Below are positions 37,523-56,838 of a stretch of DNA of 64,000 bases, piece by piece. Source of the DNA: Streptomyces sp. NBC_00271 (lineage in GTDB: Bacteria > Actinomycetota > Actinomycetes > Streptomycetales > Streptomycetaceae); NCBI RefSeq assembly GCF_036178845.1, contig NZ_CP108070.1, positions 372,001 through 436,000 on the forward strand, in the 5' to 3' direction. How positions within the stretch are numbered: the stretch's first letter is position 1; each line of letters starts with the position of its first letter. Made by a program: the position numbers and the translations under genes. Under the pieces are notes generated by a model. That model did no database searches and was not told the DNA's origin. It saw only the letters and a program-made list of their open reading frames with translations.

Positions 37523-37917
37523 TCGTGGTAGCCCCAGGCGGGGGTGAGCCGGCGATCACCGAACTCGGCGGCGCGTTCGGTGAGTCTTCCCCGCACAGGC
37601 GGGGGTGAACCGGTCGACACCGCGTTCGAGGAGCAGCGCGGCCCGTCCTCCCCGCGCAGGCGGGGGTGAACCGGTCTGGCCGTAGCCCCAGACCTCCCAT
37701 ATGCGGTCCTCCCCGCGCAGGCGTGGGTGAGCCGTCGTGGAGCACGCCCGCGCCGACGCCAGCGACGTCATACCCGCGCAGGCGTGGGTGAGCCGTCGCC
37801 ATCGCCCTCCGCGAATCCGACGCGACCGTCCTCCCCGCGCAGGCAGGGGTGAGCCGTAGCCGGTGACGTAGTCGCTGCGGCGGGCGTGGTCCTCCCTGCG
37901 CAGGCGGGGGTGAGCCG
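37523..37917 (+). CRISPR. type I-E-like CRISPR array, 7 repeats, 6 spacers of 32 nt
   Basis: Repeats of 29 nt start at 37523 (5' half degenerate), 37584, 37645, 37706, 37767, 37828 and 37889, each followed by a 32-nt spacer. The consensus begins GTCCTCCCCGCGCAGGCG and ends GGGTGAGCCG, with a palindromic core (CCCCGC/GCGGGG) as in actinobacterial I-E repeats. Nearly every repeat carries its own substitutions, so the array is decaying. After the last repeat, unrelated DNA and the IS30 element begin near 37950-37985. No cas gene lies in the window. Confidence 0.88.
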
Positions 37918-39044
37918 CCGGACGACCTCGTGCTGGCTCTGACAACTCGAGCTGGCCCCGGTCGTCAGCTTGGGTTCTATAGGTCGTTGCAACACCTGCC
38001 CTGAGGGATGTTGCGATGACCAAGCCGCGCCGGAAGCCCAAGAAGCCTGGACCTGCCCCGCTCGCCGAGAGGCGTGATCAATACCTTCGGCTCATGGCGC
38101 AGGGAATGAGTAACTCGGCCGCGTGCCGCGAGGTGGGTATCAACCGTAGGACCGGGACCCGGTGGAGGTACGGACGGAAGGTCGTTGACCGGGCAGGCCG
38201 CGAACGCGTCTACTCGCCGATCGCCGAACAGCGGGACATCGTCGAGGTGTCGCCGCGCTATCTGTCCGAGGACGAGCGGATCGTCATCGCCGACCTGCTC
38301 CGGGCCAAGAAGTCCCTGCGCGCCATCGCCCGCGACCCCGCCACGATCAGCCGCAACCGCGACCCGCGCACCGGCAAGTACCACCCGTTTCAGGCCCAGC
38401 GGCGAGCTGCCGTGCGCCGCACCCGCTCGAAGGAGGGAAAGATACGGCGCGATCCGGAGCTGAAGGAGTTCATCCAGCAGCACCTGGACCGCCGTTGGAG
38501 CCCGGAGCAGATCAGCCAGATCCTGCGTGCCGCCTTCCCGGACGAACCGGACCGCCACCTGGCGCACGAAACCATCTACCAGGCGATCTACCTGCCGCAC
38601 CGCGGCGGCCTGGAACACAAGCCTGGCCTGCTGCGATCCGGCCGCCGCGCCCGACGCCGCATTGATGAGCGCGCCACCCGCTTCATCGCCCCAGGCACCC
38701 TGATCAACCAGCGCCCGGCCGAAGCCACAGACCGCCAGATCGCCGGTCATTGGGAGGGCGACCTCATAGTCGGCCAGGGCAATAGATCGGCCATCGGCAC
38801 TCTGGTCGACCGCGCCACCCGCTACGTCAAGCTCCTGCACCTGCCCGACGGCCGGGGAGCCGAGCACGTCCGCGACGCCCTCCTGCACGCCTTCGCCGAA
38901 CTCCCCGCCGAGCTCGCCCGCTCGCTGACCTGGGATCAGGGCAGCGAAATGGGCTGACACGACGAGTTCACCCGCGCCACTGACATACCGATCTACTTCT
39001 GCGAGCCGGCCAGCCCATGGCAGCGCGGCTCCAACGAGAACACC

Positions 39045-39293
39045 TATTGGTGCAGCCTTGGCAGGCCGGGCTTCTTCGACGGGAGGGGTTCGGCGGGACC
39101 GCTGGGTGACTCGGAGAACACGTGCCGGAAGGCTTTCCGTTGAGATGTCCACGGCGGTCCACAGGACGAGGGCCCTGGCCGGGAGTGACTTGATAGAAGC
39201 CTGCTGAGCCGTCAACTCGCAATAGGTCTGTCCCCTGGCCGGGGCCCTCGCATCTGTCCCGTCATCCGCGGCAGCAGACAAGAGGACAACTCG
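39045..39293 (+). other. left end (LE) of the IS110-family element
   Basis: This 249-bp non-coding region lies between the left junction and the transposase start. The other end after the transposase is only 11 bp. In the IS110 subgroup the long left end encodes the guide (bridge) RNA. Confidence 0.75.
39061..39255 (+). ncRNA. candidate bridge RNA (seekRNA) of the IS110 element
   Basis: Two hairpin loops hold guide sequences. Target loop: outer stem GGACCGC/GCGGTCC (39096-39102 with 39154-39160), left guide GAGAACAC (39114-39121), inner hairpin GCC-GGAA-GGC (39124-39133), right guide CCGTTG (39137-39142). Left guide equals the left flank of the insertion; right guide is complementary to CAACGG of the right flank. 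Donor loop: outer stem CGAGGGCCC/GGGCCCTCG (39167-39175 with 39242-39250), guide ATAGAAGC (39193-39200) equals the right element end (40354-40361), and CAATAGG (39220-39226) is complementary to CCTATTG at the left end (39043-39049). RNA ends are approximate. Confidence 0.75.
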
Positions 39294-40352
39294 ATGGCGA
39301 CAGTGGGGATCGACCCGCACAAGCACGTCCATGTCGCAGTGGCGATCGGTGCAGACGGTCGGCGAGTCAGCCGGCCCCTGACCATCAAGAACGACGCGAC
39401 GATGATCGGCGTGCTGCTCAAGTGGATCCGCTCGATCGCCGACGGCATGCCCGTCACCTGGGCGATCGAGGACGGCCGTGGCTTCGCCCGCCGACTGGCC
39501 GACGGTCTGCTGCTGGCCGGCCACGAGGTGGTCTGGGTTCCCACCCGTCTGATGGCCGCGCACCGCAAACTGCACGCCGCCACCGGTTCCAAGTCCGACC
39601 CCGTCGACGCCGTCGCGGTCGCCCACGCCGCCATGGCCACCTCCGGCCTGGACCGTCACCGCATTGATGAGCGCGTGCGCGAGCTGCGCGTTCTGGTCGA
39701 CTCCCGCGGCGACCTCGTCCGACGCCGCACCATGGTGATCAACCAGACCAAGGCATACACGCACCTGTGGCTCGACCACGCCCCGGGCGACCTCACCCGC
39801 CGGCCTGGCATGACCTCGCTGACGGCACTGCTGGAGACCACGGAAATGAGCGCCCACGTCCGCCGGGTGCTGGCCGAGATGATCACGGAGATAGACGAGC
39901 TGAACAAACGCGTCCGCGGACTCGAGGCCACGATCCGGGAACTGGTCGCCCCGCTGGCACCCGCGTTGCTGGAGATCACGGGGATCAGCCACGTCTCCGC
40001 GGCGGTCCTGCTCGCCGAGATCGGCGACATCACCCGCTTCACCAGCTCAGCAAAGCTCGCCCGCTACACCGGAACCGCACCGATCCCGGTCTACTCCTCC
40101 GACAAGGAACGCTACCGACTGCACCGAGGCGGCAACCGGCGACTCAACAGCGTGCTCTACACGACGTCCATCGTCCAGCAGCGATTCCACCCGGGCGCAC
40201 GAGCACTCCTGGCCCGTCACGAGCCCGCCAAGGGAGCCCGCGGAGCCCGACGCATCCTCAAACGCCACCTGATCGACGTCATCCACCGCGCCATGACCCA
40301 AGACCGAGCCTCCTGGCAGCACCACATCACCCAACACCAGATCACCGCTTGA
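39294..40352 (+). CDS. IS110-family transposase (DEDD recombinase)
   Basis: The intact 352-residue protein starts MATVGIDPHKHVHVAVAIGA, the first Asp of the RuvC-like DEDD domain. WAIEDGRGFARRL carries the Glu, and GSKSDPVDAVAVAHAA holds the two later Asp residues. The C-terminal Transposase_20 domain has EITGISHVSAAVLLAEIGDI and TGTAPIPVYSSDKERYRLHR, with the catalytic-type Ser region SSDK and a following RGGNRRLNSVLY. The enzyme recombines DNA guided by a bridge RNA made from the element. The frame is complete, with AAGAGGA before the ATG, so the element may be active. Confidence 0.9.
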   Translation: MATVGIDPHKHVHVAVAIGADGRRVSRPLTIKNDATMIGVLLKWIRSIADGMPVTWAIEDGRGFARRLADGLLLAGHEVVWVPTRLMAAHRKLHAATGSKSDPVDAVAVAHAAMATSGLDRHRIDERVRELRVLVDSRGDLVRRRTMVINQTKAYTHLWLDHAPGDLTRRPGMTSLTALLETTEMSAHVRRVLAEMITEIDELNKRVRGLEATIRELVAPLAPALLEITGISHVSAAVLLAEIGDITRFTSSAKLARYTGTAPIPVYSSDKERYRLHRGGNRRLNSVLYTTSIVQQRFHPGARALLARHEPAKGARGARRILKRHLIDVIHRAMTQDRASWQHHITQHQITA

Positions 40353-40710
40353 CATAGAAGCGTCAACGGCCTGCTCCGGCAGTACTTCCCCATGGGCACA
40401 GACCTGTCGATCTACAGCGCCGAGGACCTGGGCTACGTCGCCGCCGAACTCAACGACCGCCCCCGCAAGATCCTCGGCTGGCGGACACCCGCCGAGCTCT
40501 TCACTAAGCTCGTCGCAACACTGGAGTGATCACGTGTTGCGACGCTCTCTGGAATCCGCCCAGCGGGATTCGGCCCCACTGAGCGACCTTCTGGGCTTGA
40601 TCTGGCAACGAGATTTGGCCCCACCCGCGGGAGGGGCTGCTGGCCGTGGGTTCGACTGCTCGCGGCGATAATCGGTCGCTGCCCTCTGGGCCTGCTGATA
40701 GACATGTGAG

Positions 40711-41338: not shown

Positions 41339-41555
41339 GTCCTCCCCGCGCAGGCGGGGGTGTCGAGAGGGGATGAGCCGTCAACGTGCCAGTTCTCAAT
41401 GGAGTGTTGACAGTCCTTCCCAGGGGGTGAGCCGGTGGAGCCGTTGTCGTCTCGCTGCTCGCGCCGGTCCTCCCCGCGCAGGCGGGGGTCAGCCGAACGC
41501 GCCGTTCTGCCGCGGGTGTTCCTTGACATCCTCCCCGCGCGGGCAGGGTGAGCCG
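41339..41555 (+). CRISPR. second CRISPR remnant, 4 repeats, 3 spacers of 32 nt
   Basis: Repeat 1 (41339-41380) is stretched in the same way as at 34574-34615. Spacer 41381-41412 matches 34616-34647 at 29 of 32 positions. Repeat 2 (41413-41434) has lost 7 nt. Spacer 41435-41466, repeat 41467-41495, spacer 41496-41527 and a shortened repeat 41528-41555 follow. Same repeat family and orientation as the main array. Confidence 0.8.
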
Positions 41556-54243: not shown

Positions 54244-56055
54244 ATGCAGAATGCCGAAACGGTACTGGACGTCATTCGAGAGCGTGGCAGGAAGGGACTG
54301 CCACTGGAAAGGCTGTATAGGAAGCTGTTCAACCCGCAGCTATTCCTGATGGCTTACGGGCGCATCTACTCGAACAGAGGGGCGATGACGCCGGGAGTCA
54401 CCGGAGAAACCGTGGACGGCATGTCGCTGGCCAAAATAGACGCGATCATCGGGCGCCTACGCTCGGAGTCGTATCGCTGGTCGGCGGTGAAGCGGGTTTA
54501 TATACCGAAGAAAGTCGGGAGGCGGCCTCTGGGCCTACCTCCATGGTCGGACAAGCTGGTCGCCGAGGTTGTGCGGCTCCTGCTGGACGCCTACTACGAC
54601 GTCCAGTTCTCCGATCATTCCCACGGATTCCGCTCCGGCCGGGGATGCCACACCGCGTTACGCGAGGTGGTCAATACCTGGAAGGGGACGCACTGGTTCA
54701 TCGAAGGGGACATCTCCGACTGCTTCGGCAGCCTGGACCACGAGGTCATGCTCGCGATCCTGGCGGAGAAGATCCACGATGGCCGGTTCCTGCGGCTGGT
54801 CGGTCACATGCTGAAGGCCGGGTATCTGGAGGACTGGAAGTGGAACGCCACCTTGAGTGGCGCCCCACAGGGCGGGGTGGCCTCGCCTGTCCTGTGCAAC
54901 ATCTACCTGGACCGACTTGACCAGTTCGTGGAACAGCATCTGATCCCGGACTACACCCGCGGGAGGCGTCGTCGTCCCTATCCGCCCTACCGAGACATCG
55001 AGAACCGGATCGACACGGCGAAACGGCGTGGGGACCTGGGAACGTTGCACGCGCTTCGGCGTGAGCGCCGTCTCCTGCCCAGCCAGGACCCGGACGATCC
55101 CGGCTACCGGCGCCTTCGGTACGTGCGGTACTGCGATGACTTTCTCCTGGGGTTTGCCGGTCCCAAGCACGAGGCCGAGGAGATCAAGTCCCAGATCCGT
55201 ACGTTCCTGCGTGACGAACTCAGGCTGGAACTTTCTGAGTCGAAGACGCTGATCACGCATGCCTCCAGCCAGGCGGCACACTTCCTCGGCTATGAGGTCA
55301 AATCCCAGCATGCCGACACGAAGATCACCGCCGGACGCCGAGCGGTGAACGGCGAAATTGGGCTCTACGTGCCGATGGCCGTCATCCGGGATCGGTGTGC
55401 TCGCTATATGCAGCGGGGCAAGCCCTGGCACCGCAACATGCTCCTGCACGATGCCGACTTCACCATCGTCGACAAGTACGGAGCGGAGTATCGGGGCATC
55501 GTCCAGTACTACCTGATGGCACAGAACGTGTGCCGCCTGAGCCGCCTGCGCTGGGTCATGACAGTTTCCTTACTCAGGACCCTGGCTGCGAAACACGACT
55601 CCACCGTCAACAAGATGGTGCGCAAGTACAAGGCGACCGTCGATACTCCTGACGGACCGAGAAGGTGCTTCGCAGTCGTGGTGCAGCGCGAGGACGGCAG
55701 GAAGCCACTGGTCGCCCGCTTCGGCGGAGTCACTCTGCGGCGGCAACACACCACCGTTATGTCCGACGTCCAGCCGGTCATGGGGAATCGGAAAAACGAG
55801 CTGATTCGTCGGCTCCTTGCCGGACGCTGTGAGATGTGCGAGGCAACGACAGGGCTGCAAGTCCACCACGTCAGGAAGCTCGCAGACCTCAAGCGACCAG
55901 GCCGACCGGACCCGGGTCCGTGGATTCGCCAGATGGCAGAACGCAGGCGCAAAACCCTCGTGGTTTGCCAAAAATGCCACCAGCGCATCCACGCGGGACG
56001 GGCCACAGTCTCCACTCGGAATCGATCACCGGAGAGCCGTGTACTGGGAAACTAG
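54244..56055 (+). CDS. group II intron reverse transcriptase/maturase with HNH endonuclease
   Basis: The intact 603-residue protein contains RT blocks: KRVYIPKKVGRRPLGLPPWS, SHGFRSGRGCHTALREV, IEGDISDCFGSLDH (Asp of the active site), LSGAPQGGVASPVLCNIYLD, and RYVRYCDDFLLGF with YCDD at residues 296-299 instead of the usual YADD. The maturase X domain follows (about 390-480), then a zinc/HNH endonuclease (RCEMCEATTGLQVHHVRKLA and TLVVCQKCHQRIHAG). It should splice and mobilise its intron. GGGAGG precedes ATG 54244. The last codons overlap domain V. Confidence 0.92.
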   Translation: MQNAETVLDVIRERGRKGLPLERLYRKLFNPQLFLMAYGRIYSNRGAMTPGVTGETVDGMSLAKIDAIIGRLRSESYRWSAVKRVYIPKKVGRRPLGLPPWSDKLVAEVVRLLLDAYYDVQFSDHSHGFRSGRGCHTALREVVNTWKGTHWFIEGDISDCFGSLDHEVMLAILAEKIHDGRFLRLVGHMLKAGYLEDWKWNATLSGAPQGGVASPVLCNIYLDRLDQFVEQHLIPDYTRGRRRRPYPPYRDIENRIDTAKRRGDLGTLHALRRERRLLPSQDPDDPGYRRLRYVRYCDDFLLGFAGPKHEAEEIKSQIRTFLRDELRLELSESKTLITHASSQAAHFLGYEVKSQHADTKITAGRRAVNGEIGLYVPMAVIRDRCARYMQRGKPWHRNMLLHDADFTIVDKYGAEYRGIVQYYLMAQNVCRLSRLRWVMTVSLLRTLAAKHDSTVNKMVRKYKATVDTPDGPRRCFAVVVQREDGRKPLVARFGGVTLRRQHTTVMSDVQPVMGNRKNELIRRLLAGRCEMCEATTGLQVHHVRKLADLKRPGRPDPGPWIRQMAERRRKTLVVCQKCHQRIHAGRATVSTRNRSPESRVLGN

Positions 56056-56067
56056 TCCGCACGGTTC
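56034..56067 (+). ncRNA. group II intron domain V
   Basis: This 34-nt hairpin starts GAGCCGTG and ends CACGGTTC, contains the AGC catalytic triad, and is capped by a GAAA tetraloop within CTGGGAAACTAG. It is the catalytic core of the intron RNA. Confidence 0.85.
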
Positions 56068-56122
56068 GGGAAGGGGCCGTCGGAAAAGGACCCGAGCCAT
56101 GGGTACCTCGTCGGCGGCCTAC

Positions 56123-56838
56123 TTCACCAGCGTCCGGGTGCTGAGGGAAAGCCTCTTCGACCGCCTCAGCCAGGTTATCGGCAGCAGTGCAGGCGGCTTC
56201 CATCTGGATGAGGAGAGCGAGCATCTGTTTGCCGAGCGCGTCCTCGACGGGCAGAGGCTGATGGGCCCAGTCAGCCCGGAAGATGTCGCGAAGCCGTTCG
56301 GCTTCGGCCTCGACCCCGCGCTGTCGGCCAGCCCGCTTGAGGGCGGCCTGGAGCTGGGTGCGGGTCAGCCGGGCCGCGCGGGTCGGGGTCGGAGCCGTCC
56401 GGAGGACCTCGCGAACCTCGGTCCGGCACAGACCGTTCTTCCACCCGTCGGCCGCTGCCAGGGCGGAGGGGTAGTACTCGCGCAGCAGGGAGCGGAGCTG
56501 GTTGGCAATCTGTCGGGTAGCCGGTTCCAGGTGGCATCCTGCTGGGCCCGGGCGAGGACGGCGACCGCCTGGGCAAGGTCGTCGCTGTCGTTCGGGAGCG
56601 GCCGGGGGGCGCGCATATCGGTGCGAAGAATGTTCGCCAGAACCAGGGCGTCGCCGGGGTCGGACTTCTTGCGCGAAACGGAGTGACGGTCGCGATAGCG
56701 GGAGGCGGCCATCGGGTTGATCGCGAACCCCTGCCGCTTGCCGGTCCGTAGCACGGCGACCAGCTGGCCGCGGGAGGTCTCGAACGCGACGGGAATCGGG
56801 GTCTCTTCGGTGTCGCCGCACTCGGCGAGCAGGTCCAC
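56123..56838 (-). pseudogene. IS110-family transposase, N-terminal/middle part, truncated and frameshifted
   Basis: The reverse strand reads LLAECGDTEETPIPVAFETS, RGQLVAVLRTGKRQGFAINP and KKSDPGDALVLANILRTDMR. After a frameshift near 56510 it continues ANQLRSLLREYYPSALAAAD and NLAEAVEEAFPQHPDAGE. There the group II intron interrupts it; the rest is at 53299-53705. The first residues with the leading Asp are missing because a cation-efflux fragment joins at about 56840. Confidence 0.72.

Follow-up and report, generated by a model that had tools for sequence, protein, structure and literature searches.

An IS110-group element of Streptomyces sp. NBC_00271 with a predicted bridge RNA whose guides match the codons around the IS30 catalytic glutamate

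The window analysed here is a stretch of 64,000 nucleotides from Streptomyces sp. NBC_00271, and all positions without a locus number refer to it; related loci are given by L numbers. The window contains an IS30 transposase gene that is interrupted by an IS110-group element (Table 1). The bounds of the element are refined ones, with 40365-40369 belonging to IS30; the IS30 frame resumes at 40365, and relatives with the same ends were found. An in-frame TGA (38955-38957) is present in the IS30 transposase gene, separate from the IS110 insertion. Probable terminal inverted repeats of IS30 are located at 37969-37994 and 40535-40560 (12/14 matched automatically); their extension was judged by eye against the ISLxc3 ends printed in the available part of PMC2516522. 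CRISPR-like repeats with a spacing of 61 nt occur at 37535-37920 and 41339-41548 and flank IS30 on both sides; the IS30 carrying the IS110 element sits beside or between pieces of a CRISPR-like array. A group II intron match was identified at 56032-56127 (Rfam RF00029, 61.4 bits).

Table 1. Features of the IS110-group element, its predicted RNA and the interrupted IS30 gene (positions within the window)
Feature	Positions	Strand	Remarks
IS30 transposase gene, 5' part	38016..39044	+	NCBIfam NF033563, 161.5 bits (cut-off 80)
Left half of target in IS30	39036..39044	+	GAG AAC ACC = Glu-Asn-Thr
IS110-group element	39045-40364	+	left end begins TATTGG; right end ...ATAGAAGCGTC
Predicted bridge RNA core	39095..39254	+	covariance model R1, 185.6 bits; own sequence (L001) in training set
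Predicted target-binding loop with small inner hairpin	39096..39160	+	outer stem GGACCGC 39096-39102 with GCGGTCC 39154-39160
Left target guide GAGAACACG	39114..39122	+	8/9 match to left flank
Right target guide CCGTTGA	39137..39143	+	reverse complement TCAACGG = 40363-40369 (donor core TC + IS30 AACGG)
Target-loop handshake guide position, GA	39144..39145	+	defined per section 11 of PMC11208158
Predicted donor-binding stem-loop	39167..39251	+	helices 3 and 4: 91.7% and 100% of cells paired
Left donor guide ATAGAAGC	39193..39200	+	= right end 40354-40361
Right donor guide CAATAGG + handshake letter T	39220..39227	+	reverse complement ACCTATTG = left junction 39042-39049
DEDD recombinase, 352 aa	39294..40352	+	D7, E59, D102, D105; Pfam, NCBIfam, alignment
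IS30 transposase gene, 3' part	40365..40529	+	frame continues past element
Right half of target in IS30	40365..40369	+	AACGG

The recombinase matches Pfam PF01548 and PF02371 with 77.5 bits (cut-off 29) and 65.7 bits (cut-off 21.3), respectively, and NCBIfam NF033542 'IS110 family RNA-guided transposase' with 167.2 bits (cut-off 140). D7, D102, D105 and S268 are invariant in an alignment of 18 relatives and E59 is conserved in at least 90%; this bears out the claim of an earlier note on this DNA that the transposase has complete DEDD residues. Judging by its segment, we infer that S268 is the counterpart of S241 in the Tnp domain of IS621. Noncoding sequence amounts to 249 nt ahead of the ATG and 12 nt past the stop codon, which places the element in the IS110 group rather than in the IS1111 group. 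Besides one full copy of the element, the source genome contains a single 155-bp match (70%). No sigma-70-type promoter or terminator was found in a simple scan of 38950-40450. The word TTGACA was seen by eye in the right end (40349-40354), which in a circle would lie just upstream of the left end; no -10 partner was found.

The IS30 flanks read GAGAACAC on the left (39036-39043) and CAACGG on the right (40364-40369). Target positions 1-14 are GAGAACA-CC-AACGG, in the IS30 frame Glu-Asn-Thr-Asn-Gly, where GAG is the codon of the glutamate of the IS30 DD(33)E motif, with 33 residues between it and the second Asp (spacing as given in the available part of PMC2516522). The earlier note had taken an empty 14-nt target from the interrupted frame, and real empty sites agree with it: 26 of 30 empty IS30 loci read GAGAACAC[C/G]AACGG (C in 14, G in 12), and the remaining four differ by 1-2 letters. 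Of 150 Streptomyces genomes, 36 gave a match, the source genome among them, and the best 29 loci from these were read; the thirtieth locus is an IS30 remnant located on contig C2 in the source genome. With the target carried by 26 of the 30 loci, at the codon of the catalytic Glu, the guide would thus spell a site kept constant by the IS30 protein.

A coordinate check found all of the words previously read as guides where they had been placed, namely the target-guide words GAGAACAC (39114-39121) and CCGTTG (39137-39142) and the donor-guide words ATAGAAGC (39193-39200 and 40354-40361) and CAATAGG (39220-39226), the last with CCTATTG at 39043-39049. The ninth letter of the left target guide, G at 39122, mismatches C39044. 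When the 249-nt left end was shuffled 20,000 times (mononucleotide shuffles), GAGAACAC was found in 34 shuffles, CCGTTG in 1681, ATAGAAGC in 24 and CAATAGG in 195; all four together were found in none. Donor guides and element ends were also compared with the window in single examples: they agree in L020, L162 and L163 and only partly in L031, and L020 carries GG for GC in both guide and end.

Both target guides lie inside the 7-bp stem, as claimed before, and GGACCGC and GCGGTCC were read at its two sides. When a hand-written two-stem structure was applied to 22 left ends, 95.3% of cells were paired vs 89.3% in shuffles, and double-sided changes were present in 13 of 36 pairs (mean of 4.8 in shuffles; a value as high was not reached in any of 500). 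Controls slid by 1-3 columns were 33.3-46.0% paired; the structure was read from the same sequences and is hence favoured over its slid versions. Compensatory change in the 22 left ends argues for a two-loop fold conserved among homologues, as expected from the earlier note. Taken alone, the minimum-energy fold has only a modest advantage over shuffles (z -2.45), and in part of it one target guide is paired to the other; the alignment was therefore relied on for the structure. The covariance model gave a match at 1e-5 in 23 of 345 genomes of the class, beside more distant IS110 genes, some of these matches being in the training set; at the level of the order 1 of 293 genomes matched, the source genome itself. 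A scan of viral contigs gave four remote relatives, which were of no use. As the only match in an Rfam scan of the whole window at gathering scores was the group II intron, with none at the element, no Rfam family covers the RNA of the element.

Ends of the element were sought by pattern in 30 loci of its clade, among which L008/L009 are one genome, L019/L087 have identical ends and L005/L006 are two copies in one strain; a spurious reverse-strand pattern match in L123 was disregarded. In the IS30 frame 16 of 17 left ends read ...NENT or NENA. All 23 right ends resume with an Asn codon, 22 of them with an NGLL-like frame of IS30; in L015 the contig ends there. Neither end was found by this search in L010, L011, L036 and L039. 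The same loops at unrelated sites were not seen as a pattern, L011 and L021 being exceptional. L011 (recorded as Streptomyces sporangiiformans), the same sequence as L089, keeps the loop GAGAACAC; its left flank GCCGCT is joined to CATTGG, with the first element base changed, and it has no right end. Given the missing right end and the altered first base, this copy may be rearranged. L021 has the flank GAGAATACC, in a frame that is only partly IS30-like. Going by record titles, confirmed sites come from ten genera: Streptomyces, Saccharopolyspora, Amycolatopsis, Mycobacterium, Mycolicibacterium, Nocardia, Nocardioides, Prauserella, Actinoplanes and Actinoalloteichus. The element is uncommon, the protein being found at E 1e-80 in 5 of 392 Streptomyces genomes, source genome included.

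Across actinobacteria, guides and flanks were compared in 64 covariance-model matches. Of these, 14 were dropped (duplicates, or without a nine-letter guide or upstream sequence) and 50 kept, with 29 distinct left guides, each scored as a single row. The mean score of a left guide was 6.76/9 on its own flank vs 4.77 on the flanks of other loci, a value reached in none of 100,000 permutations, and scores of at least 8/9 were obtained on 11 of 29 own flanks vs 1 of 812 others. Within the scanned distance 16 of the 29 guides score at least 7/9 and eight score at most 5/9 on their own flank; L107, one of these eight, and L120 (6/9) have a 9/9 match beyond that distance, and seven guides remain at 5/9 or below after L107 is set aside. 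For right guides, 46 of the 64 matches qualified by having a single right-end motif together with a usable guide (17 were without motif, one without guide); the 13 distinct guides averaged 4.54/5 on their own flank vs 1.38 on others, again with none of 100,000 permutations as high. Loop and flank differ together in L020, L094/L162, L095/L163, L099/L165 and others. L020 and L162 have the left guide TACAAGATC in common and different right guides, and their right flanks differ to match. The target guides covary with the insertion sites. The earlier reading of the IS110 left end as a bridge RNA is supported by the conserved fold and by guides that change with their flanks.

A shared site would say nothing on targeting if a single ancestral insertion into IS30 had been followed by movement of the IS30-IS110 pair as a unit. 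Orientation and site are identical in nearly all copies, as such a history would have it, and L003 and L004 share 92.5% of their IS30 left flank. It is nevertheless very improbable, since in the other close pairs the elements are 89.9-94.5% identical and the IS30 left flanks only 64.0-80.0%, and since retargeted relatives have guides that fit their own flanks outside IS30. Over the 11 of 91 pairs with an element identity of at least 88%, elements average 91.8% and IS30 left flanks 73.2% (64.0-92.5); from this difference the insertions at the IS30 site are largely independent and repeated. That the recombinase protein itself reads the site, with the guide-like words being chance or relics, would agree with the similarity of the clade recombinases, all on one site. 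The joint change of guide and flank letters in 29 left and 13 right guides, and the shuffles, none of which held the four words together, make this very improbable as well. The element is very probably an insertion sequence of the IS110 group whose left end holds a bridge RNA, and its clade is specialised on the codons around the IS30 catalytic Glu.

The core dinucleotides of the window are TC in the donor (40363-40364) and CC in the target (39043-39044); position 8 differs and position 9 is C in both. The register of the core is fixed by L020, L162 and L163, which have TC at both ends. Of the 23 right ends in the clade, 21 have the donor core TC and the other two, L008 and L009 (one genome), have CC; of the 17 left ends, 16 have the target core CC, and L003 has CT. 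A G in position 9 is found in none of the inserted copies and in 12 of the 30 empty sites (Fisher p 0.0035 for 16 vs 0 and 18 vs 12, with L005/L006 counted once; the value is optimistic, as related copies are not independent). IS621 strongly favours a matched CT core (PMC11208160, section 8) and reads the second core base more strictly than the first, with position 8 being laxer (PMC11208158, section 8). This laxity and the CC right ends of L008 and L009 would be in line with a later mutation or mis-set ends as the source of the unequal cores, which would then be no feature of the reaction. Such an origin is rather unlikely, however, as the TC donor and the CC target recur across ten genera and as relatives aimed elsewhere, the three loci that fix the register, have TC on both sides. 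At L008:1304-1330 and in the right end of L009 the sequence is ATAGAAGCACC followed by AACGG, and the target letters CACC replace the donor letters. Going by the cut positions of IS621, this right end would resemble a product fixed from the bottom strand.

After exchange of the top strands, each right guide of IS621 pairs with the core brought in from the other DNA, the right target guide with that of the donor and the right donor guide with that of the target, as described in parts of PMC11208160 and PMC11208158. In the window the core letters of the right target guide, GA, pair with the donor TC and not with the target CC, and those of the right donor guide, GG, pair fully with the target CC and only by wobble with the donor TC. 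Of 18 distinct combinations, 15 have a pair between donor position 7 and the target-loop letter adjoining the core, one has a wobble and two have neither. One of the two failing combinations is that of the window's own subclade (six loci), where the first letter of the handshake guide GA is unpaired with the G at donor position 7. The second target-loop handshake letter pairs in only 7 of 18 combinations, and in L163 and L165 a TC target is found together with GG. The core letters of the right-hand guides are suggestive of a fit to the exchanged product, as the handshake model of IS621 would want, with exceptions in the window's subclade, in the second letter (7/18) and in the GG of L163 and L165.

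In L004 the interrupted IS30 gene carries a second IS110 element (L004:3140-4466), inserted about 25 bp beyond the first, with a protein 32% identical to that of the window. All nine letters of the left guide AGTACTTCC of this second element match its left flank, the codons of the RQYFP motif. The guide AGTACTTCC also matches the RQYFP flank 9/9 in L190, on a plasmid of Rhodococcus opacus, and the guide of L197 matches its flank, which is only degraded IS30, 8/9. IS30 or IS30-like flanks are thus present in three of 11 second-lineage loci read (L004, L190, L197); L191-L195, L198 and L199 have other guides with 7-9 of 9 letters matching their own flanks, and no guide was found in L196. Matches in L192, L197 and L198 were scored by eye. 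Going by guide and flank letters, this second IS110 lineage can apparently aim about 25 bp further on in IS30.

For the window element, the target loop would pair with both strands of the 14-nt site in IS30 transposase genes, and the DEDD recombinase would swap top strands just past the core dinucleotide and then resolve the junction, as in IS621. Selection on the IS30 protein would keep the codons round the catalytic Glu constant, and these are widespread among genomes, so that the guide would still be useful after transfer to a new host. Bridge-RNA targeting would in this way extend to a coding site that another transposon must keep for catalysis, and this would let one guide serve ten genera. 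As a wider and tentative proposal, IS30 could possibly be a standing target of RNA-guided hyperparasites, with at least two IS110 lineages separately aimed at NENTNG and RQYFP, two conserved stretches that adjoin each other in the IS30 catalytic domain, and with unequal cores and right-hand guides in both loops of the NENTNG clade written for the exchanged strands, so that exchange gains pairs. If true, handshake pairing would be put to natural use throughout a clade, driving insertion forward. A set of natural guide-target pairs whose cores are unequal would make the handshake model of strand exchange testable without design work, and guide-directed parasitism of one transposon on another is a suggested niche worth a survey.

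The bridge RNA or seekRNA machinery of IS110 elements has been known since 2024 (PMC11208160, PMC11208158, PMC11187229). No account of an IS110 element aimed at IS30 was retrieved in a literature search whose coverage excluded preprint servers, most subscription journals and ISfinder; within the literature searched, the IS30 catalytic-Glu niche of the clade, the second IS110 lineage in IS30 and the unequal cores appear to be new. Likeness to ISEc21 and the seekRNAs is seen in the noncoding region upstream of tnp, which in IS110 types sets the target-selecting RNA; IS1111 types have it downstream of tnp, with longer subterminal repeats, and in the available part of PMC11187229, from which this is taken, the targets named are attC and REP sites, with no mention of IS30. 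With IS621, as described in parts of PMC11208160 and PMC11208158, the element shares an RNA in the left end in which the target loop precedes the donor loop, left guides of 8-9 nt that copy the top strand and complementary right guides, a 14-bp target whose core occupies positions 8-9, and a recombinase with DEDD and Tnp domains. The core of IS621 is CT in both target and donor (PMC11208160, PMC11208158), whereas here it is [C/T]C and unequal. A matched core, which the window element lacks, is a trait of IS621 and no condition of the IS110 family. The recombinase is only remotely similar to that of IS621 (phmmer E 0.0084). IS621 targets REP sequences, whereas the target in the window is a coding site of IS30. 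Elements homing to conserved coding motifs, homing endonucleases for example, also exploit sites kept constant by protein function; here, in contrast, a guide RNA would read the site, and the gene struck belongs to another transposon.
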